Shown piece by piece: positions 1,593 to 53,542 of a DNA stretch of 64,000 nt. The stretch covers positions 744,001 to 808,000 of the forward strand of contig NZ_RQJO01000009.1 in assembly GCF_003858635.1 (NCBI RefSeq). Direction: 5' to 3'. Each line of letters starts with the position of its first letter. Within the stretch, counting starts at the first letter, position 1. Source of the DNA: Larkinella rosea. Its GTDB lineage: Bacteria > Bacteroidota > Bacteroidia > Cytophagales > Spirosomataceae. The notes beneath the pieces were generated by a model. It did no database searches, was not told where the DNA came from, and worked only from the letters and a program-made list of their open reading frames with translations. Both the position numbers and the translations under genes were made by a program.

Positions 1593-2186
1593 TTACAAAA
1601 TCACCTCCATCTCAAAGCCTTCTAAAACCTCTTCGCCCGATAGCACCACTTTTTCACCCGTCCGAATTTCAAGCGAACCGGTTTCCCGATAAATTGTGAC
1701 GGTTTTCTCAATCCGGTCGATGAGCCAGCCGAGCCGACAACCATTCGCCTGGTATTCGTCCATTTTGGCTTTTAATTCATGTATCGAATCCGTTTTGGAA
1801 CGAATTTCAATCACGAAATCTGGACAGATGGGTGCAAATTTCTCCCGTTTGGCTTCCGGTAAGGCATCCCAGCGATCTTTCCGAATCCAGGATACATCCG
1901 GCGACCGAACCGCCGAATTGGGAAGGGTGAAACCGGTTGACGAATCGAACACGTAACCTGTCTTCTTTTTACGGTTCCAGATAACCACATCTGCGGACAT
2001 CTCCGAATTGTAACGTCCTGTTTCTGATCCGGTGGGAGGCATAAGAATGATATTTCCGTCGGCATCGCGCTCCAGACGCAAATCCCGGTTGGCCTGACAC
2101 AAGGCAAAGAAATAGTCGTCGTCAAACTGGTATTGACGCGGTGGGTGAAGTGTCAGGTGGTCGGATTGCTGAATCGTCGCAAGCAT
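1593..2186 (-). CDS. Uma2 family protein (DUF820, PD-(D/E)XK nuclease fold)
   Basis: A 197-residue protein with the Uma2/DUF820 layout: N-terminal YQFDDDYFFALCQANRD, then SPDVSWIRKDRW (first acidic residue), PDFVIEIRSKTDS (the D...ExR/K active-site strand), and a helix LKAKMDEYQANGCRLGWLID. The family has a restriction-endonuclease-like fold and is strongly expanded in Cyanobacteria and Bacteroidota; a cellular role is not established. All core acidic and basic positions look intact. It is monocistronic. A second, diverged Uma2 protein is at 28577-29215; the two differ too much to be a recent duplication. Confidence 0.88.
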   Translation of the reverse strand: MLATIQQSDHLTLHPPRQYQFDDDYFFALCQANRDLRLERDADGNIILMPPTGSETGRYNSEMSADVVIWNRKKKTGYVFDSSTGFTLPNSAVRSPDVSWIRKDRWDALPEAKREKFAPICPDFVIEIRSKTDSIHELKAKMDEYQANGCRLGWLIDRIEKTVTIYRETGSLEIRTGEKVVLSGEEVLEGFEMEVIL

Positions 2187-2328
2187 GGGGCACGGCTTTT
2201 GTCAAATATAACACAAATGGTTCACTTTTGGGGTCGTAGATATTAAACCGCAATTGCTCTTTGCCATTTCCCGAAACCCCAATCATTATTCTTCATTACA
2301 AAATTTTACAAAAAAATCAATGCGTAAT

Positions 2329-2358
2329 TTTGACACATTGAATCTTTGTTTACTTTTG
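2329..2358 (+). promoter_or_regulatory. Predicted Bacteroidota housekeeping promoter for the 2432 gene
   Basis: TTTG at 2329-2332 and TACTTTTG at 2351-2358 are separated by 18 bases. This fits the Bacteroidota consensus TTTG-N(17-23)-TAnnTTTG. The start codon at 2432 lies about 70 bases further on. The 218-base intergenic region (2187-2404) otherwise shows only A+T-rich sequence. It is predicted from sequence only. Confidence 0.6.
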
Positions 2359-2431
2359 GTACAATGAATCGGCGTTTTAATTACAAGCTCCCGGTTTTCT
2401 GGTTTTGACGAACTTTATCTGGTGGAGTATC

Positions 2432-3322
2432 ATGGTGTTAGCTCGGATAGTTGGTTTCCTGCTGGTACTCGTATTGTCTGGCTCTGTACGGGCGGCAAAG
2501 GTTGATACGCTCGAAATTCAGAGCACTGCCATGAAGCGGACCCTGCGGGCGGCTGTAATCCTGCCGGAGCGGTATGGAGAAAAGAAATCGCGGAAAGCCA
2601 ACCAGCTATTCCCGGTTTTGTACCTGCTCCACGGCGGCACGGGTGGTTTTCGCGACTGGCTGACCAAAACGCCCGACAAAACCCTGCTGCATCGGCTGGC
2701 CGACCACTACAACCTGATCATCGTGACGCCCGATGGCGATCCGACCAGCTATTATTTCGACAGTCCGCTGGTGGCAAGCAGTCAGTTCGAAACGTTTATT
2801 TCGAAAGAGGTAGTCGAGAAAATTGACAATACTTACCGCACGATCCGCGACCGAAAAGGCCGGGTCATTGCGGGTTTGTCGATGGGCGGACATGGCGCAA
2901 TGTTTATCTCGAGCCGTCATCCCGAATTGTATGCGGCTGCCGGGAGCATGAGTGGAGTAATGAACATTAATACCGCCACCTGGAAAGTTGCCGCCGATTT
3001 TGCCAAATCCCGCGCAGAAAACCTTGCCCGTTTGCTGGGACCGCCGAAAGAAGGCAATGCTCCGTATCCGGGCCTTACGATGGTAACACTCGCCGATCGG
3101 CTGAAAAGCAACAGCTTACCCTTGATTTTCGATATCGGGGTGGATGACTTTCTCATCGAAGGAAACCGGGATCTGCACCGCCAATTGGTTGAAAATAAAA
3201 CGCCCCACGACTACACCGAACGACCCGGCGCGCATACCTGGGAGTATTGGGAAAATGCCTTGCCGTATCAGGTGTTGTTTTTCAGTAAAATCCTGAAAGC
3301 AAATAACCTGCTGATTCCTTAG
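2432..3322 (+). CDS. Secreted esterase of the esterase D/feruloyl esterase-like family
   Basis: A 296-residue alpha/beta hydrolase of the putative-esterase family (S-formylglutathione hydrolase, feruloyl esterase, antigen 85 relatives). The ATG at 2432 is preferred over an upstream TTG because it places a signal peptide (MVLARIVGFLLVLVLSG) at the N-terminus and has GGTGGAG just upstream. Motifs are the oxyanion-side loop LLHGGTGGFRDW, the nucleophile elbow GLSMGGHG (GxSxG), an acidic residue in IGVDDFLIEGN, and the catalytic His in GAHTWEYW. Likely periplasmic deacylation of a carbohydrate or phenolic ester. It is followed after 46 bases by a second esterase, probably co-transcribed. Confidence 0.88.
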   Translation: MVLARIVGFLLVLVLSGSVRAAKVDTLEIQSTAMKRTLRAAVILPERYGEKKSRKANQLFPVLYLLHGGTGGFRDWLTKTPDKTLLHRLADHYNLIIVTPDGDPTSYYFDSPLVASSQFETFISKEVVEKIDNTYRTIRDRKGRVIAGLSMGGHGAMFISSRHPELYAAAGSMSGVMNINTATWKVAADFAKSRAENLARLLGPPKEGNAPYPGLTMVTLADRLKSNSLPLIFDIGVDDFLIEGNRDLHRQLVENKTPHDYTERPGAHTWEYWENALPYQVLFFSKILKANNLLIP

Positions 3323-45112: not shown

Positions 45113-45394
45113 ATGAATCGCTACATCGTCATTTCCAACCATACCGAGGCCGATTGCCGCATGGCAATCAAGTATTTTCGGGCTTATCACGCCGGTTTTT
45201 TAACGCATTTCGAATGGGGCTGTTACGACGACGACCACAATGCGTACGCCATCATCGAAGCCGACAGCCACGAACAGGCACTGATGGCCGTTCCGCCCCT
45301 GTTCCGCGAAAAAAGTAAAGTGATCAAACTGACGCATTTTAAGCCCTTTGCAACGGTTGACACGGCGCACGGAACGCCTTCTGTTGACTCGTAA
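45113..45394 (+). CDS. Small conserved protein (93 aa), ferredoxin-like fold predicted
   Basis: Not recognised with certainty. The order YIVISNHTEA - DCRMAIKYFRAYHAG - LTHFEWGCYDDDHNAYAIIEADSHEQALMAVPPLFREKSKVIKLTHF suggests a beta-alpha-beta-beta-alpha-beta unit, as in small GYD/DUF3303-like proteins. No signal peptide. It lies 44 bases before the membrane histidine kinase and is likely the first gene of that operon, so it may be a soluble partner of the kinase or flavoprotein. Confidence 0.7.
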   Translation: MNRYIVISNHTEADCRMAIKYFRAYHAGFLTHFEWGCYDDDHNAYAIIEADSHEQALMAVPPLFREKSKVIKLTHFKPFATVDTAHGTPSVDS

Positions 45395-45438: not shown

Positions 45439-47037
45439 ATGATAAACATCGTTGATTACATTGCGTCCATCGGGATACAGCCGAATGACCGGGAAGATGC
45501 TATTCTTCAAAAGCGGTTTTTGGTCTATCAGGCCCTGTTGATGAGTGGCGGGGGCATCCTCTGGGGCATTCTGGCGTTGGTGCTGAACCGCGAATGGCAA
45601 TCGACCGTTCCGTTTGGATACGTTCTGATCACTGCGGTAAATCTGTTGTATTTTCATCATTCCGGCGATTTTCGGGTGGTGAAAGCCATTCAAACGGGCA
45701 TCAGCCTGTTGCTGCCTTTTCTGTTTCAGTGGGTGTTGGGCGGTTTTATTGCTTCGGGAGCCGTGATGCTGTGGGCGTTGATGTCGCTGGCGGCTTCGGT
45801 CACTTACCAGAGCAACCGAAAGGTGGCATTCTGGTTGGGGTTATACATCGTGCTGACCCTATTTAGTGGGTATTTTGATCAGAATTTTAAAGCGTGGATT
45901 CGGCCCGACGATGCGGAAGCGTATTCCGTTCCGGCGATGGTGATGAACATAGCCGTTATTTCAACTATTCTGTTGTGGCTGGTCAATTTTGTGGTGCGGG
46001 GCAAGAACGAAGCACTTCAGCGTTTGCAGGAAGCCCAGTTGCAGGTTGTTCAATCTGAGAAAATGGCTACCCTGGGAACGCTGGCGGCCGGGGTGGCCCA
46101 CGAACTGAATAATCCGGCGGCTGCAACCCGCCGGGCATCGCAGCAACTGCGGACGGTTTTATCGAAACTGGAACAGGCACGGCTGGAGGTCGATCACCTC
46201 GATTTGTCGCCGGATGACCGGGAATTCATGAATCGTCTGGAGAAACAGGCCCTGAACCGGTCGACGAAACCCGTGTACGTCGACTCGTTGCAACGTGCTG
46301 ACGACGAGGCCAATACCGAAGAGTGGCTGGAAGATCACGCTATCGAAAACGCCTGGGAACTGGCCCCGGCGCTGGTCTCGATGGGATTATGCAAGAAGGA
46401 ATTGAGTCAGCTGGCTCCGGCCTATGACGAAACGCCGTTTCGCGCCATTGTCGTCTGGGCGGCCCACCTGTATCCGGTCTATTCGTTGCTGCACGAAATC
46501 AGCGAAGGTTCGGGCCGGATTTCGGAGATTGTCGTTGCACTGAAAAATTATTCCTTTCTGGGGCAGGCACCTATTCAGCAGGTCAATGTGCACGAAGGCA
46601 TCGAAAATACGCTGATTATTTTACGCAGTAAGTTGAAGGCGGGTATTACCGTCCATCGGGCCTATTGCGCTGAGGTACTGGAAATTACGGCCTACGGCAG
46701 CGAACTAAACCAGGTCTGGACCAACCTGATCGACAATGCGATCGGGGCGATGGATTCCAACGGCGAACTGACGATTCGGACCCGAAAAGACAAAAACTGC
46801 GTGGCGGTGGAAATTGAGGACAATGGACCCGGCATTCCGGCGGAGATCCAATCGCGGATATTCGATCCGTTTTTCACGACCAAAGCCCCCGGCCAAGGAA
46901 CCGGTCTGGGCCTTTCGACCTGCTACGGAATCATCACCGAAAAGCACAAAGGATCGATCAACGTACAGTCCAAACCGGGAAAAACGACGTTTACGGTCAA
47001 ATTACCGATCCATTACCTGATTCCAGATTGTAACTAA
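45439..47037 (+). CDS. Membrane histidine kinase (partner of the REC-flavoprotein)
   Basis: A 532-residue kinase. N-terminal 5-6 hydrophobic segments between about 28 and 186 (e.g. [46 protein letters not shown]), then a coiled linker and HisKA with His221 in [19 protein letters not shown]. Residues about 240-370 form an unusually long insert between the H-box and N-box. The catalytic part has [36 protein letters not shown] and [12 protein letters not shown]. It lies 49 bases before the response-regulator fragment and is probably in the same operon. Confidence 0.92.
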
Positions 47038-47086: not shown

Positions 47087-47473
47087 ATGGCACAAACCAA
47101 ACCTGTAGTCTTTTGCGTAGATGATGACGCGGAAGTTCTGGCCGCCATCGAGCGGGACTTGCGGCAACATTATAAAAGCCAATACCGGCTCATCAAATCC
47201 GGTTCGGCGCAGGAAGCCCTCGAAGCAGTCCGGCAATTGAAACAGCGGGGAACGCCGGTGGCGTTGTTTCTGGTCGATCAGCGGATGCCCGGAATGACCG
47301 GAACGGAATTTCTGACCGAAGCCCGAAAACTATTTCCGGAGGCAAAAAAAGTATTGCTGACGGCTTATGCCGATACCGAAGCCGCTATTGTCAGCATCAA
47401 TTCCATTGGCCTGGATCATTACCTGATGAAACCCTGGGACCCGCCGGAACAAAAACTATCCGGTTTTGGATGA
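47087..47473 (+). CDS. Response-regulator domain, 5' part of a frameshifted REC-flavoprotein gene
   Basis: A 128-codon frame with a complete REC domain: CVDDDAEV, phospho-acceptor Asp64 in LFLVDQRMPGMTGTEF, LLTAYADTEAA and Lys in LMKPWDPPEQK. It then stops after LSGFG. In the neighbouring frame the sequence continues YPVLDDLLAEWTTEV, exactly where fused REC-TrxR-like proteins continue. The joint is at about 47452-47458 (AAAAACTATCCGG). Compared with the expected ..EQKLYPVLDDLL, two bases appear missing (or one extra). So 47087-48752 is best read as one gene interrupted by a frameshift. Confidence 0.85.
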   Translation: MAQTKPVVFCVDDDAEVLAAIERDLRQHYKSQYRLIKSGSAQEALEAVRQLKQRGTPVALFLVDQRMPGMTGTEFLTEARKLFPEAKKVLLTAYADTEAAIVSINSIGLDHYLMKPWDPPEQKLSGFG

Positions 47474-48752
47474 TTTGCTGGCCGAGTGGACAACGGAAGT
47501 TCGACTGCCCTACGAAGGAATTCGGGTGGTGGGCGCACGCTGGAGTTCACGGAGTTACGAGGCAAAAGAGTTTCTGTCCCGCAATCAGGTTCCGTACCAG
47601 TGGATCGATGTGGACGAGGATGAGGCCATTGGCGAACTCGTCAAACCGATGTCGGACGAGCTGACGCGGCTGCCGGTGATTTTGTTCCCGGATGGGTCGA
47701 GTCTGGTAGCCCCGTCGAATCTGGAACTGGCCGAAAAAGCCGGTATTACGACGAAGGCCCAAAAACCGTTCTACGATTTGGTCGTCATTGGCAGCGGGCC
47801 GTCGGGGCTGGCCAATGCGGTTTACGGCGCGTCGGAAGGTTTGCGGACCATCATCATTGAACGCAGTGCGCCGGGCGGACAGGCAGGTTCGAGTTCGCGC
47901 ATTGAAAATTACCTCGGTTTTCCGTCGGGCATTACCGGTGCCGATCTGGCGCATCGGGCCGTCGCACAGGCCAAGCGGTTTGGGGCTGAAATGCTGACAG
48001 CGCAGGAAGCGGTTTCGTTTCGGCGCGACGACCCGTATCGCTACGTCAGGCTGTCGGACGGATCAGAAATCTGCTGTTACGCCATCGTATTTGCCACCGG
48101 GATGTCCGTGAAAAAGCTGGAAGTTCCTGGCATTGAGGAGTTACAGGGCTTGGGTGTGTATTACGGAGCCGCCATGACCGAAGCCGCTACCTACCGCGAT
48201 AAAGACATCTGCATCGTGGGGGGCGCCAACTCAGCCGGACAGGGCGCGATGTTTTTCAGTCGGTACGCCCGAAGTGTCACGATTTTGATCCGGGCCAAAA
48301 CCCTGAGCCCGGCCATGTCGCATTACCTCGTCGATCGGATTGAAGCGACGCCCAACATTACTGTCCTGGCGGAGGTGGAAGTAGCGTCGGTAACGGGCAA
48401 TACCCACCTGGAAAAAGTGGTCGTTCGAAATGTCGAAACCGGCGAAGAAACCGCGCTGGACATGGCGGCCATGTTTATCTTTATCGGTTCGGCCCCGCAC
48501 AGCGATATGGCCGAAGGCTTCGTTCCCTGCGACGACAAAGGGTTCATTCTGACTGGCCCGGATTTGCCGAAAATCAACAACAAAACCAAAGGCTGGACGC
48601 TCGACCGCGACCCGTTTTTATTCGAAACCAACGTTCCGGGAGTTTTTGCCGTCGGCGATGTGCGGAGTGGAGCCAACCGGCGGGTGGCAGCCGCGGTGGG
48701 CGAAGGGTCGGCGGGAATTTATCTGGTGCAGCGGTATTTGAAAACCGTGTAA
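47466..48752 (+). CDS. Grx-like + thioredoxin-reductase-like flavoprotein lacking redox cysteines (3' part of split gene)
   Basis: A 428-codon frame from a TTG at 47466. Residues about 1-90 resemble a glutaredoxin/thioredoxin-like domain (IRVVGARWSSRSYEAKEFLS, VPYQWIDVDEDE), but the CxxC position reads SSRS. Residues about 95-425 are a TrxR-like flavoprotein: VVIGSGPSGLANAVYGASEG (FAD), ERSAPGGQAGSSSRIENYLGF, then GVYYGAAMTEA where TrxR has CATC, a second dinucleotide site (CIVGGANSAGQGAMFFSR), and GVFAVGDVRSGANRRVAAAVGEGSAG. No redox-active cysteine pair is left. Likely an NAD(P)H/FAD sensor or reductase controlled by the REC domain. Confidence 0.88.
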   Translation: MDDLLAEWTTEVRLPYEGIRVVGARWSSRSYEAKEFLSRNQVPYQWIDVDEDEAIGELVKPMSDELTRLPVILFPDGSSLVAPSNLELAEKAGITTKAQKPFYDLVVIGSGPSGLANAVYGASEGLRTIIIERSAPGGQAGSSSRIENYLGFPSGITGADLAHRAVAQAKRFGAEMLTAQEAVSFRRDDPYRYVRLSDGSEICCYAIVFATGMSVKKLEVPGIEELQGLGVYYGAAMTEAATYRDKDICIVGGANSAGQGAMFFSRYARSVTILIRAKTLSPAMSHYLVDRIEATPNITVLAEVEVASVTGNTHLEKVVVRNVETGEETALDMAAMFIFIGSAPHSDMAEGFVPCDDKGFILTGPDLPKINNKTKGWTLDRDPFLFETNVPGVFAVGDVRSGANRRVAAAVGEGSAGIYLVQRYLKTV

Positions 48753-49222: not shown

Positions 49223-49314
49223 GTCGTGAAGGGTATCGTAAATTGTTAAATTGGTGCGTTTTATTAAAAACCGTTGAGCGGAACAAAACCGCTATTCTTA
49301 AACCCAAATTTGCC

Positions 49315-50094
49315 ATGATTGTGAGGAATGTGCTTGGTTTTTTAGTGCTGACAGTGGTTTTTTATTCCTGTTTCCAAAAACGGCCCTACGGAAATCCGGT
49401 TCAGGCTCCGGCGACCATTCTGAAAGACATGGAGAGTTTCTGGAATTACAAAGCCAGAAATGTCCGGCTTTACGAAGATTACCAGGCCTTGGACCCGGAA
49501 TCAAACGTCATTCCGAAGAAGGATTTTCTGAAAAAAATAGCCACCGGAGAGTACTTTCCGTTGCGGCTTTCTTCGATCGATTCAATGGCATATTACCGGT
49601 TGCAGCCGATCAAGAAGACGACGAATCAGGACATTCGAACCACCGTTAAATACTGGGGACTCGAAGAACTGGAGCATTTTCAGAAAGAAGGAACCGCCAT
49701 GCCCGACTACCAATGGGTGGACATGGAAGGCAAGCGATACACGAAAGAAACGACCAAAGGGAAAATTCTGGTGGTTAAATGCTGGTTTCTGGCCTGTCTG
49801 CCCTGCATTCAGGAAATGCCGGCCCTGAATGAATTGAAACGGCAATACGAAAGCCGCGACGATCTTCTTTTTGTGAGTTTATGCATGGACCCGAGCGATA
49901 AAGTCGCTGCGTTTTTAATGAAAAAGCAGTTCGATTATGCCACCGTCCCGGATCAGGAATCATTCTTGACGGATCAACTACAACTCAATGCCTATCCAAC
50001 CCATTTTGTGATCAATAAAAAGGGCCTGATCACCAAAAAAGTGAACGATTATCACGCTCTGGCGTACGCGTTGAAAAAGGAGACATCGCGGTGA
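49315..50094 (+). CDS. TlpA-like thioredoxin-fold lipoprotein
   Basis: A 259-residue lipoprotein. ATG 49315 gives a lipoprotein signal (MIVRNVLGFLVLTVVFYSC, lipobox FYSC); the 24 codons upstream lack features. A helical region (30-130) is followed by a thioredoxin domain (about 135-255) with the redox site CWFLACLPCIQEMP (CLPC), cis-Pro in AYPTHFVINKKG. It should reduce or isomerise disulfides in the periplasm. It is a complete protein, unlike the truncated TlpA-like gene at 33920. Followed by the palindromic repeat at 50098-50180. Confidence 0.9.
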   Translation: MIVRNVLGFLVLTVVFYSCFQKRPYGNPVQAPATILKDMESFWNYKARNVRLYEDYQALDPESNVIPKKDFLKKIATGEYFPLRLSSIDSMAYYRLQPIKKTTNQDIRTTVKYWGLEELEHFQKEGTAMPDYQWVDMEGKRYTKETTKGKILVVKCWFLACLPCIQEMPALNELKRQYESRDDLLFVSLCMDPSDKVAAFLMKKQFDYATVPDQESFLTDQLQLNAYPTHFVINKKGLITKKVNDYHALAYALKKETSR

Positions 50095-50180: not shown

Positions 50181-50618
50181 CTACACCCGCCGATCATCCG
50201 GCAACCAGTTGACGATAGACTTTTTAATGGCTTTCGGGCTCAGGTTTTCGGATAGCGCACGTTGCGTCAAAACCGGTAATTCCTCGTCGGATGCAAACCG
50301 CAGGGCCAGAATCTGACCGAACGAAAGTTGGTTTTCGATGGTTTCCAATCGTTGCCCCGTCAATACATAATACCGAAACCGCATCTCCATCCGAACGATC
50401 CGGTCCTGATTCATCAGGGCATAATGCTGCCGCAGCATGAAGGAAACCCAGATGATCAGGAAAATAACGACACTGATAAAAAGCCAGATGAGCGTCTGTT
50501 CGTCGGATTTGATGGTGTAATAAATACTGATTCCCAAGAGAATAAGGGCGACAGGATAAAATACAAAGTGGTGCGGAGGGTAATATCGGACGTGGTTTTC
50601 GTAATTTTGGGCTTTCAT
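50181..50618 (-). CDS. DUF6526 family membrane protein
   Basis: A 145-residue protein; ATG 50618 (MKAQNYENHVRYYPPHH) is the family start, against a GTG three codons upstream. Two TM segments (about 20-38 and 45-64) are followed by a cytoplasmic helical tail: RMEMRFRYYVLTGQRLETIENQLSFGQILALRFASDEE. Typical of DUF6526 proteins, function unknown. Convergent with the TlpA-like gene and divergent from the DEAD-box gene at 50696, with about 77 bases between starts. Confidence 0.9.
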   Translation of the reverse strand: MKAQNYENHVRYYPPHHFVFYPVALILLGISIYYTIKSDEQTLIWLFISVVIFLIIWVSFMLRQHYALMNQDRIVRMEMRFRYYVLTGQRLETIENQLSFGQILALRFASDEELPVLTQRALSENLSPKAIKKSIVNWLPDDRRV

Positions 50619-50695
50619 TGCGTTCACGAACGTTGGATTCAGACGTTCATCATAAAGTGTTTAATGGTCTGTATTGTTTTGCAGACAACAAGGAT

Positions 50696-52027
50696 ATGAC
50701 TTTTGAAGATTTAAATCTAACAAAACCGCTGTTAAATGCCCTGACGGATCTGGGCTACACAACGCCTACGCCTATTCAGCAGAAGGTTTTTTCGGTGGTG
50801 ATGTCGGGAAAAGACGTTTGCGGAATTGCCCAGACCGGAACCGGCAAAACATTTGCCTACCTGCTGCCGTGTCTCCGTCAGTTCCAGTTTTCGAAAGACC
50901 GGTTGCCGCAGTTGCTCATCATCGTGCCAACGCGGGAGTTGGTGGTGCAGGTCGTGGAAGCGGTTCAGCAATTGACAACCTCCATGAATCTGACCGTTGT
51001 CGGCATTTACGGCGGGGTGAACATCAAACCGCAAATTGCGGAAGTCGAACAGGGAACGGACGTGCTGGTTTCGACGCCCGGCCGGCTGATCGATCTGTCG
51101 ATCAAAGGGTTACTCAAAACCAAATCCATTAAGCGGCTGGTGATCGATGAGGTGGACGAAATGCTGAACCTCGGTTTTCGGACGCAGCTGGAAACCATTC
51201 TGGATCTGCTCCCGGCCAAACGGCAAAACCTGCTGTTTTCGGCCACCATGACCGAAGAGGTGGAAGGGCTGATCGAAACGCATTTCAATAATCCGGTCCG
51301 GGTAGAGGCTGCTCCGGCGGGAACGCCCCTCGAGAACATTCGCCAGACGGCCTATGCGGTTCCGAATTTTTACACCAAAATCAATCTGCTCGAACACCTG
51401 CTGCGGCAGGATGCCGATATGACCAAAGTGCTGGTTTTTGTCGCGACTAAAAATCTGGCGAATCAGCTTTACGAACAAATGGAAGCGAAGTTTCCGGATC
51501 AGGTGGGCGTGATTCATTCCAACAAGGAGCAAAACTACCGGTTCAATTCGGTTCGGCAGTTCCAGGACGGCAATTTCCGCGTGCTGATTGCGACCGACAT
51601 CATCGCCCGGGGGCTGGATGTGGCCGAAGTGTCGCACGTCATTAATTTTGATTTGCCGGAAGTTCCCGAAATGTACATTCACCGGATTGGCCGAACGGGC
51701 CGCGCCGACCGGAACGGAATTGCCATTGCCTTCATCACGGAGCGGGAAAGCGAAGAGCAAACCGCCATTGAGCAGGTGATGAACTACGCGATTCCGATGC
51801 TGCCGCTGCCCGATGATCTGACTATTTCAGACGTGTTGACCGAAGATGAAAAACCGACGGTGAAGATGAAAAATCCGGGCGTCAAAATCCACCTGAGCGA
51901 TACGTTCGGCGGGGCCTTTCACGAAAAAATTGAGAAGAATAAAAAGGTGAATGTGCGTCGGAATCACGCGGAGGAAATGATGAAAAAATACGGCAAACCG
52001 ATCCGGAAAACGCGGAAGAATAACTGA
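50696..52027 (+). CDS. DEAD-box RNA helicase with DEVD motif II
   Basis: A 443-residue helicase. ATG 50696 (MTFEDLNLTKPLLNAL) follows an AAGGA sequence; the longer frame upstream is not conserved. Motifs in order: Q motif YTTPTPIQ, I AQTGTGKT, Ia PTRELVVQ, II IDEVDEML (DEVD, not DEAD), III SAT, IV VLVFVATK, V ATDIIARGLDV, VI HRIGRTGR. A Lys/Arg-rich tail (about 395-443) is typical of RhlE-type proteins. It should act in ribosome assembly or RNA turnover in the cold. Confidence 0.94.
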   Translation: MTFEDLNLTKPLLNALTDLGYTTPTPIQQKVFSVVMSGKDVCGIAQTGTGKTFAYLLPCLRQFQFSKDRLPQLLIIVPTRELVVQVVEAVQQLTTSMNLTVVGIYGGVNIKPQIAEVEQGTDVLVSTPGRLIDLSIKGLLKTKSIKRLVIDEVDEMLNLGFRTQLETILDLLPAKRQNLLFSATMTEEVEGLIETHFNNPVRVEAAPAGTPLENIRQTAYAVPNFYTKINLLEHLLRQDADMTKVLVFVATKNLANQLYEQMEAKFPDQVGVIHSNKEQNYRFNSVRQFQDGNFRVLIATDIIARGLDVAEVSHVINFDLPEVPEMYIHRIGRTGRADRNGIAIAFITERESEEQTAIEQVMNYAIPMLPLPDDLTISDVLTEDEKPTVKMKNPGVKIHLSDTFGGAFHEKIEKNKKVNVRRNHAEEMMKKYGKPIRKTRKNN

Positions 52028-52063
52028 TAATCAGTCAATTGTAATAATTTTCATACCCCTTTT

Positions 52064-52091
52064 CCGTGGGCTGTGTCTGCACAGCCCACGG
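52064..52091. terminator. Perfect 12-bp hairpin after the helicase gene
   Basis: CCGTGGGCTGTG (52064-52075) and CACAGCCCACGG (52080-52091) around a TCTG loop, 36 bases after the stop. No T-run follows on the plus strand. On the minus strand it is followed by AAAAGG, so it is more REP-like than a canonical terminator. Only one copy is in the window. Confidence 0.6.
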
Positions 52092-52142
52092 AGATGAGAT
52101 GGTCTAGTTGAAGGTATTTTAGTTCTTGTGAATTAAGCAGCA

Positions 52143-52298
52143 TTATTGATATTTCTCAATCAAATACCGGTTATACTCTTCTTTAAGATCCAAATTAAGG
52201 GGTATTGAAATATTGGATCTCATGCTTTTAACAAATGGCGTAATTTTTATTTCGGCTTTTTTTATCTCCGACACTTTCGATGCCATTTTCTTCTTCAT
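52143..52298 (-). CDS. 51-codon remnant of a DUF6364-like antitoxin
   Basis: A small minus-strand frame, ATG 52298 to TAA 52143-52145, reading MKKKMASKVSEIKKAEIKIT, then PFVKSMRSNISIPLNLDLKE and EYNRYLIEKYQ. The pattern ITP-(I/F)VKS-(L/M)-.....DxKxEYxxxLxEKYx is the C-terminal half of DUF6364-type antitoxins as I recall it. The usual N-terminal ribbon-helix-helix part is not found upstream, and the frame runs open to a TAA at 52398-52400. It is probably a decayed gene; a short intact protein is possible. It lies opposite the 52400 helicase leader. Confidence 0.45.
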   Translation of the reverse strand: MKKKMASKVSEIKKAEIKITPFVKSMRSNISIPLNLDLKEEYNRYLIEKYQ

Positions 52299-52348
52299 TC
52301 GGCTGACCGTTTTTTTAATGTAAATATACAGGTTTGGTGTAAGTAATC

Positions 52349-52377
52349 TTTCACCCCGGTATTTAGTGGTATCTTTG
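52349..52377 (+). promoter_or_regulatory. Predicted promoter of the second DEAD-box gene
   Basis: TTTC (52349-52352) and TATCTTTG (52370-52377, a full TAnnTTTG box) with a 17-base spacer, 22 bases before the ATG at 52400. The rest of the 372-base gap holds the hairpin at 52064-52091 and the antitoxin remnant. Confidence 0.6.
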
Positions 52378-52399
52378 CCGCTCGTAAACGGGAAATATT

Positions 52400-53542
52400 A
52401 TGTCTTTTTCATCGCTTGGATTATCTGCACCACTCCTCAAAGCCGTTGAGGAACAGAGTTATACAAATCCGTATCCCATTCAGGAAGAGGCTATCCCGGC
52501 GATTCTGAAGGGACATGATGTGCTGGGAATTGCCAAAACCGGATCGGGAAAAACCGCCGGTTTTGTCTTGCCGATTCTGGAGCGGTTTCAGCGTAAAAAG
52601 ACCACCAATGACCGCAATGCCAAAGTCCTTGTGCTGGTGCCGACGCGCGAACTGGCTGTTCAGGTGGCCGACGTTTTTCAGACGCTGGGGGCCAATCTGC
52701 CCCGGCGCGTGAAAACGCTGGCGGTCTACGGCGGGGTGTCGATCAACCCGCAAATGATGGCGTTGCAGGGGGCCGAAGTGGTGGTGGCTACTCCCGGACG
52801 CTTGCTGGATCTGGTGTCGTCCAACGCCTTACACCTGTGGGACGTCGAAGTGCTGGTGCTCGACGAAGCCGACAAAATGCTGGAACTCGGGTTTGCCGAA
52901 GAAATGAACGAAATTTTTGAAATGTTGCCCAAAAACCGCCAAAGCATTCTGTTTTCGGCCACCTTGGGCGATTCCATTCAGGGCATTCGGGAGAACCTGC
53001 TGCGAAATCCAATCAAAATTGAAATCGCGGAAGAACCCCAAAATCTGGCCCTGATCAAACAGGTCGCCTACCGCATCGATCCCGAACGCAAGGGGCCTTT
53101 GTTGCGGTATTTGATCAAAGAGCGGAAAATGACGCAGGTGCTGGTGTTTGTTTCCTCAACCCGAACGGCCGACAATCTCGTGGTGAAGCTGCGGAAAAAC
53201 GGCATTCCGGCCGAGGCCATTCACGGCGACAAAAGCCAGGGCGCCCGGACGGAAACCCTGCGCAAATTCAAAACCGGACAGTTGGCGGTAATGGTGGCTA
53301 CAGATCTGATTTCCAGAGGAATCGATATTCAATTATTGCCGTATGTCGTCAACTTTGAACTGCCGCGTTCGCCGAAAGATTACATTCACCGGATTGGCCG
53401 GACGGGCCGGGCCGAAGCCGAAGGCGAAGCCATTTCGCTGATCTGTCCCGACGACGAACACCATTTTAAAATCATCCAGAAAAAAATGGGCAAGCGGGTT
53501 GAAATGATCGAAACCGAAGAACTGAGCCTGAAAGGGTATTGA
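52400..53542 (+). CDS. DEAD-box RNA helicase, short RhlE-like
   Basis: A 380-residue helicase without long extension: Q motif YTNPYPIQ, I AKTGSGKT, Ia PTRELAVQ, II LDEADKML, III SAT, V ATDLISRGIDI, VI HRIGRTGRAEAEGE. It ends directly after helicase domain 2, so RNA targeting must come from the core or partners. Paralogue of 50696-52027, likely through divergence rather than recent duplication. Ends just before an inverted repeat. Confidence 0.94.
   Translation: MSFSSLGLSAPLLKAVEEQSYTNPYPIQEEAIPAILKGHDVLGIAKTGSGKTAGFVLPILERFQRKKTTNDRNAKVLVLVPTRELAVQVADVFQTLGANLPRRVKTLAVYGGVSINPQMMALQGAEVVVATPGRLLDLVSSNALHLWDVEVLVLDEADKMLELGFAEEMNEIFEMLPKNRQSILFSATLGDSIQGIRENLLRNPIKIEIAEEPQNLALIKQVAYRIDPERKGPLLRYLIKERKMTQVLVFVSSTRTADNLVVKLRKNGIPAEAIHGDKSQGARTETLRKFKTGQLAVMVATDLISRGIDIQLLPYVVNFELPRSPKDYIHRIGRTGRAEAEGEAISLICPDDEHHFKIIQKKMGKRVEMIETEELSLKGY

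Follow-up and report, generated by a model that had tools for sequence, protein, structure and literature searches.

The window, that is, the whole 64,000-nucleotide stretch of Larkinella rosea DNA analysed here (contig C12:744001-808000 of an 8.17 Mb genome), encodes a receiver (REC) domain followed, in another frame, by a flavoprotein with glutaredoxin (Grx)-like and thioredoxin reductase (TrxR)-like parts. We conclude that the two open reading frames (ORFs) are one gene, a broken member of the REC-TrxR fused response regulators. This architecture, which an earlier note on this DNA had already described as known to databases, is in print (PMC5847659). The part worth following, and what is new here, is the family of the 93-amino-acid protein encoded two genes upstream of the REC ORF: it is without a Pfam entry, has fixed His and Cys residues and recurs in some other REC-TrxR clusters.

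The REC and flavoprotein ORFs overlap by 8 bases in different frames, with a TTG codon just ahead of the REC stop; the three-part order REC, Grx-like, TrxR-like is kept, yet the parts do not form one polypeptide. The earlier note had proposed a single gene split by a frame change, with an intact length of about 560 residues, and had named relatives consisting of two separate genes as the finding that would speak against it. The relatives bear the split out. The closest listed protein relatives, whose flavoprotein parts are up to 83% identical to that of the window, consist of one chain of ca. 555 amino acids, and 109 of the 120 protein matches listed are single proteins of 535-570 amino acids, the remaining 11 being the window's own 428-amino-acid ORF and 10 short proteins that start inside REC. 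In a phylum sample of 390 genomes searched at E<=1e-90, 53 genomes contained a family member and 48 a REC-bearing copy; the 55 matches listed comprised 48 with REC and flavoprotein in one stop-free frame, six that begin after REC and the window copy. Thus, 48 of 49 REC-bearing phylum copies have a single open frame; the sole exception is the window copy, whose match, unlike those of all other REC-bearing copies, begins at query residue 122. An intact paralogue of 553 amino acids (49% identity; L002:1492-3153) is also present in the same genome.

Nonsynonymous divergence (dN) between the window gene and the homologue at locus L036 is low (0.20 and 0.18 for the two parts), and the flavoprotein ORF carries no second lesion over 428 codons. 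Together with the one-frame relatives, this leads us to conclude that the break either arose recently or stems from an error in the sequence. The nearest DNA relative compared is too far to gauge relaxed selection, the synonymous divergence being 1.4 for REC and not estimable elsewhere. Since 10 of the 120 listed proteins start inside REC and six of the 55 phylum matches begin after it, further broken copies may exist in the family.

Each of eight other genomes of the same genus contains one paralogue (46-49% identity), and a second copy was absent from all eight at E<=1e-60. A FastTree tree of 55 sequences, with a single TrxB as root, unites the window copy with the metagenome-derived relatives P0004 and P0005 (0.95) and separates it from the paralogue of its own genome (L002); lateral gain and differential loss both fit this placement. 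A frame-broken second copy that stands beside an intact paralogue and has no orthologue in the other same-genus genomes sampled could be a pseudogene with no present function. We regard this as possible but rather unlikely: there is a single lesion, dN stays low over 428 codons, and the ORFs of the neighbouring kinase and small protein are intact.

The window flavoprotein has no cysteine pair at either of its expected redox sites. As had been read from the sequence earlier, the Grx-like CxxC site is SSRS and the TrxR site is GAAM (48165-48176). The TrxR loop is one residue longer than that of the canonical own-genome TrxB (L003), so that either GAAM or AAMT can be aligned to the CAVC of TrxB; there is no Cys in either. 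Among the 109 full-length listed relatives, the first column of the Grx site always reads S or N; the fourth reads S in 89 proteins and C in the other 20. Only one of these proteins has a Cys in the TrxR loop, at a single column, so that none of the 109 can form a redox pair there. The four columns aligned to CAVC are free of Cys in 44 of 44 members of a set that includes REC-fused, cyclic nucleotide monophosphate (cNMP)-fused and stand-alone proteins from Bacteroidota, Cyanobacteria, Deinococcus, Caballeronia, Paraburkholderia and Streptomyces; in two of these (L070 and L073), the fourth Grx position is Cys. Twenty-six further members (L108 being the same locus as L021) have the loop G[VI]YYG[AS][AS][MTR]TEA, again with no Cys in 26/26; the sets of 109, 44 and 26 sequences partly overlap. 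CxxC is likewise absent from the own-genome paralogue. The dinucleotide motifs for flavin adenine dinucleotide (FAD) and NAD(P)H, GSGPSGLA and GGANSAG, are near invariant in the listed relatives.

Since no pair was found in any member checked, absence of CxxC is an old trait of the whole family. The earlier reading of a module that "has lost disulfide chemistry" is best taken as an old loss shared by the family: a loss peculiar to the window copy is ruled out by the own-genome paralogue and by all the members checked.

Compared with the intact REC-TrxR fused response regulators, the window locus has the same domain order, the same kinase neighbour and the parts of a protein of ca. 553 amino acids; it differs in that the gene is split over two frames and a gene of a small His/Cys protein is linked to it. 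With TrxB, the window flavoprotein shares the fold and the FAD and dinucleotide motifs, but it lacks the CxxC pair and its NCBIfam match to TIGR01292 (9e-69, 231.6 bits) lies under the cut-off of 343.45. The Grx-like part, which contains neither CxxC nor CxxS, matches the mycoredoxin model TIGR02200 at 4e-10 (39.8 bits, cut-off 89.5), and the Pfam Glutaredoxin match in this ORF is also below cut-off. The TrxR-like ferredoxin/flavodoxin-NADP reductases are electron-transfer flavoproteins with a TrxR fold and no CxxC; they have a C-terminal extension that stacks on FAD and they reduce ferredoxin or flavodoxin. Their sequence match to the window protein is weaker (best E 5.5e-15 versus 1.5e-53 for TrxR), and the window protein adds REC and Grx-like domains. 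In AhpF, as in the window protein, a TrxR-like module stands behind a Trx-fold domain (4o5q, E 9e-32); AhpF retains its CxxC pairs, whereas the window protein has none. The cNMP-binding TrxR-like proteins contain the same Grx-like plus TrxR-like part, likewise CxxC-free, with a cNMP domain instead of REC (assigned by record name in L070 and L073 and by eye in L061 and L072); the kinase core described below was not found at these four loci. Two such records are titled "cyclic nucleotide-binding domain-containing thioredoxin-disulfide reductase", and plasmid records of REC-TrxR proteins are named FAD-dependent oxidoreductase. The reverse case is provided by the TrxR variants FFTR and DDOR, in which CxxC is kept and the NADPH site is missing (PMC9025218).

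Stand-alone members also occur: Gloeocapsa sp. PCC 7428 (L071:4019-5311) encodes a 430-amino-acid Grx-TrxR without CxxC, adjoined by thioredoxin-domain and DsbA-family genes. Intact REC-TrxR homologues are also encoded in Deinococcus aetherius and Nostoc edaphicum. At Nostoc and Deinococcus plasmid loci (L065 and L066), a gene named low temperature requirement protein A lies near REC-TrxR.

The REC residues D12, D13, D64, T92 and K115 are each invariant in 109 of 109 full-length listed relatives, and the window REC has this complete phosphorylatable pocket. Of 24 REC-bearing loci with flanks, 23 have a kinase core like that of the window kinase at a distance of up to ca. 3 kb (22 of 23 when the window, the source of the query, is set aside); in the other loci, its identity to the window kinase is 31-58%. 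The kinase gene mostly adjoins the REC-TrxR gene and is divergent from it in L037, L038 and L050. The core was also seen in 24 of 26 further REC-bearing loci with 1.5 kb flanks, and in none of five members without REC (L061 and L070-L073, which either carry a cNMP domain or lack a regulatory domain altogether). Of the phosphorylation control suggested in the earlier note, the sequences support a phosphorylatable REC with a linked kinase. The N-termini of the kinases vary: that of the window kinase looks membrane-like by eye, that of L049 is PAS, that of L065 is REC, and those of L052 and, below cut-off, L051 are cNMP-binding. Among NCBIfam models, the window REC fits NF053512 best (c-di-GMP phosphodiesterase response regulator, NosR family), with 103 bits against a cut-off of 400, which suggests kinship of the REC with that group.

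We give roughly even chances to the proposal that the locus encodes an NAD(P)H/FAD effector which is switched by the kinase and hands electrons to a separate, non-disulfide acceptor. It would be a two-component system with an enzyme output in place of a DNA-binding domain: the kinase would phosphorylate REC, and REC together with the Cys-less Grx-like domain would gate the TrxR-fold module. Without CxxC, the module would have no use for the swing that brings TrxR into its flavin-oxidising state. It would work as a flavin reductase in an arrangement resembling the flavin-reducing one, and its reduced FAD would deliver electrons to an acceptor that may be a protein or a small molecule such as a quinone. 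The broken second copy, as read, would yield a free REC and perhaps also a free Grx-TrxR through coupled re-initiation at the overlapping TTG. The proposal starts from what can be read directly (the domains, the REC pocket, the kinase linkage, the absence of CxxC and the intact relatives) and adds to it phosphotransfer, the direction of control, redox activity and the acceptor.

Several observations weigh against this proposal. No such kinase lies near L058, the only miss among the 24 loci, nor in the 1.5 kb flanks of L079 (outside the 24), L092 and L097, and the L065 kinase gene stands three genes away from REC-TrxR. Members without REC sit on separate branches of the tree, so the contrast in kinase linkage also tracks phylogeny; the flank of one such member, L071, contains genes annotated for a GAF protein and a response regulator. 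The AF2 model is of moderate quality (mean predicted local distance difference test score (pLDDT) 82.9, predicted template modelling score 0.58) and free of FAD, and its residues 261-286 score below 50; the conformational argument is thus weak. No biochemistry of REC-TrxR was found among the open-access titles and abstract beginnings listed.

The flavoprotein could also be a sensor rather than an actor, its FAD, once reduced by NAD(P)H, altering REC-kinase binding and so letting the kinase read the NAD(P)H or redox state of the cell. That kinase N-termini differ among loci while the TrxR loop is nearly fixed would agree with such a role, as would the lack of an obvious catalytic exit in a protein without CxxC. 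We nevertheless find it doubtful, since the invariant REC pocket suggests a signal flow from kinase to flavoprotein and the cNMP-fused members without this kinase (L061, L070, L072 and L073) look like ligand-controlled enzymes.

The 93-amino-acid neighbour is, judged from its residues and position, a candidate redox partner of REC-TrxR. The earlier note had placed this protein correctly, and its conserved, cluster-recurring family had gone unnoticed. A Pfam search gave nothing better than E 0.17 and Foldseek no match at E<=0.001; neither result shows a new fold. Its secondary-structure elements are predicted to follow one another as b-a-b-b-a-b (pLDDT 76), and its matches, to Dabb-like, PII-like and Lrp-like folds, are all weak. 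There are 1100 homologues at E<=1e-3. All 120 homologues listed and all 11 phylum hits have H10, C15, W35, C37 and P61 (window numbering). H32 is kept in all 120 and in 8 of the 11 (T, T and K in L082, L083 and L084, respectively), and H42 in all 120 and in 10 of the 11, with Cys in L078, a swap that would suit a metal ligand. The conservation of His and Cys was first noticed on chosen subsets of 40 and 64 sequences and then checked on the 120 and 11. A distant member of the family (L084, G077:C34:38000-38251) has a signal-peptide-like start (by eye), and some members may be exported.

Homologues of the small protein are present in the REC-TrxR clusters of four other loci: in L037, L050 and L079 they lie 14, 17 and 49 bases, respectively, past the stop codon of REC-TrxR, and in L051 upstream of the kinase. 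None was found at the REC-TrxR loci L036, L038, L049, L052-L060 and L062-L069, nor at L092-L117 (1.5 kb flanks). At E<=1e-6, the small protein occurs in 11 of 395 phylum-sample genomes. Five of the 11 also have REC-TrxR, in a single cluster in four and on different contigs in the exception, G220; in the other six, no REC-TrxR was found at E<=1e-60 or 1e-90. Against a background of 53/390, the hypergeometric probability of this co-occurrence is 0.009, or 0.03 without the own genome (4/10), with kinship ignored, and we consider the co-occurrence mildly above chance. A paralogue of the small protein (31-34% identity) is present in six of nine same-genus genomes, the own genome included, and at all six loci (L043-L048) it lies 35-72 bases after a gene of an SQR/FCSD-like FAD oxidoreductase. 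The six oxidoreductases are recognised by a motif that they share; Pfam, run on two of them, gave Pyr_redox_2 and, below cut-off, FCSD_central.

A gene of a small zf-UBP protein lies near REC-TrxR at L052:5899-6171 (the own-genome paralogue locus), L053:5454-5726 and L069:8107-8460; these neighbours span Bacteroidota and Streptomyces.

One may imagine a thiol or metal-redox system whose cysteines act in trans: electrons would pass from NAD(P)H to the FAD of the Cys-free TrxR and on to a dedicated small protein, the Cys and His residues of which (Cys15/Cys37 of the 93-amino-acid neighbour, as thiols or a metal site, or a zf-UBP protein elsewhere) would replace CxxC, the same small family serving both REC-TrxR and the SQR/FCSD-like oxidoreductases. 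The fixed H10, C15 and C37 and nearly fixed H32 and H42, the shared clusters, the oxidoreductase pairing in 6/6 genus loci and the zf-UBP neighbours would fit this scheme, but the small protein is missing from most REC-TrxR loci and from the REC-TrxR cluster of G220, and over half of the genomes that encode it have no REC-TrxR, which makes the scheme quite improbable in this specific form. A programmed or tolerated frameshift from which the gene would give REC alone as well as the joined protein, and for which the 8-base overlap, the TTG and the stand-alone Gloeocapsa protein might speak, is very improbable and was not favoured, because the relatives checked (48/49 phylum copies, 109/120 listed proteins) read as one frame.

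The features of the locus are collected in the table below. All four genes lie on the same strand in the order small protein, kinase, REC, flavoprotein, with gaps of 44 bases upstream and 49 bases downstream of the kinase gene; the limits of the ORFs, their domains (by Pfam and NCBIfam) and the junction agree with what had been noted before. Further downstream, an AhpC/TSA-type redoxin protein (Pfam) is encoded at 49243-50094 and two DEAD-box helicase-like genes (by eye) lie at 50618-53542; at L036, a helicase-like gene likewise stands two genes past the REC-TrxR gene.

Table. Coordinates of the REC-TrxR locus in the window and of the paralogous small-protein pair elsewhere in the genome.
Feature	Position	Strand	Basis or remark
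93-amino-acid protein, family without name, candidate partner	45113..45394	+	Pfam and homologue listing
Histidine kinase, HELNNP box, HATPase_c	45439..47037	+	Pfam HATPase_c 3e-26
REC (receiver) domain ORF, 128 amino acids, stop reached past the frame change	47087..47473	+	Pfam Response_reg 5e-15
Asp64 of REC, predicted phospho-acceptor	47276..47278	+	Invariant in 109/109 listed full-length relatives
Frame-change stretch	47440..47475	+	Single frame there in relatives
Grx-like plus TrxR-like FAD/NAD(P) module, 428 amino acids, TTG start	47466..48752	+	Pyr_redox_2 7e-33
Glutaredoxin/mycoredoxin-like domain	47523..47738	+	TIGR02200 4e-10; CxxC site is SSRS, 47544-47555
TrxR-like domain	47772..48740	+	Loop YYGAAMTEA 48159-48185 without Cys; GGANSAG 48219-48239
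Own-genome paralogue of the small protein and oxidoreductase pair	L048:1468-1737 and 1782-2942	-	

REC-TrxR proteins are common, with a REC-bearing copy in 48 of the 390 phylum-sample genomes, and the source names call them FAD-dependent oxidoreductase or thioredoxin reductase, yet no copy checked has a redox Cys pair. Identifying their electron acceptor would define an enzymatic, non-transcriptional output of a two-component system, and the linked small His/Cys protein offers a concrete candidate acceptor that can be tested.
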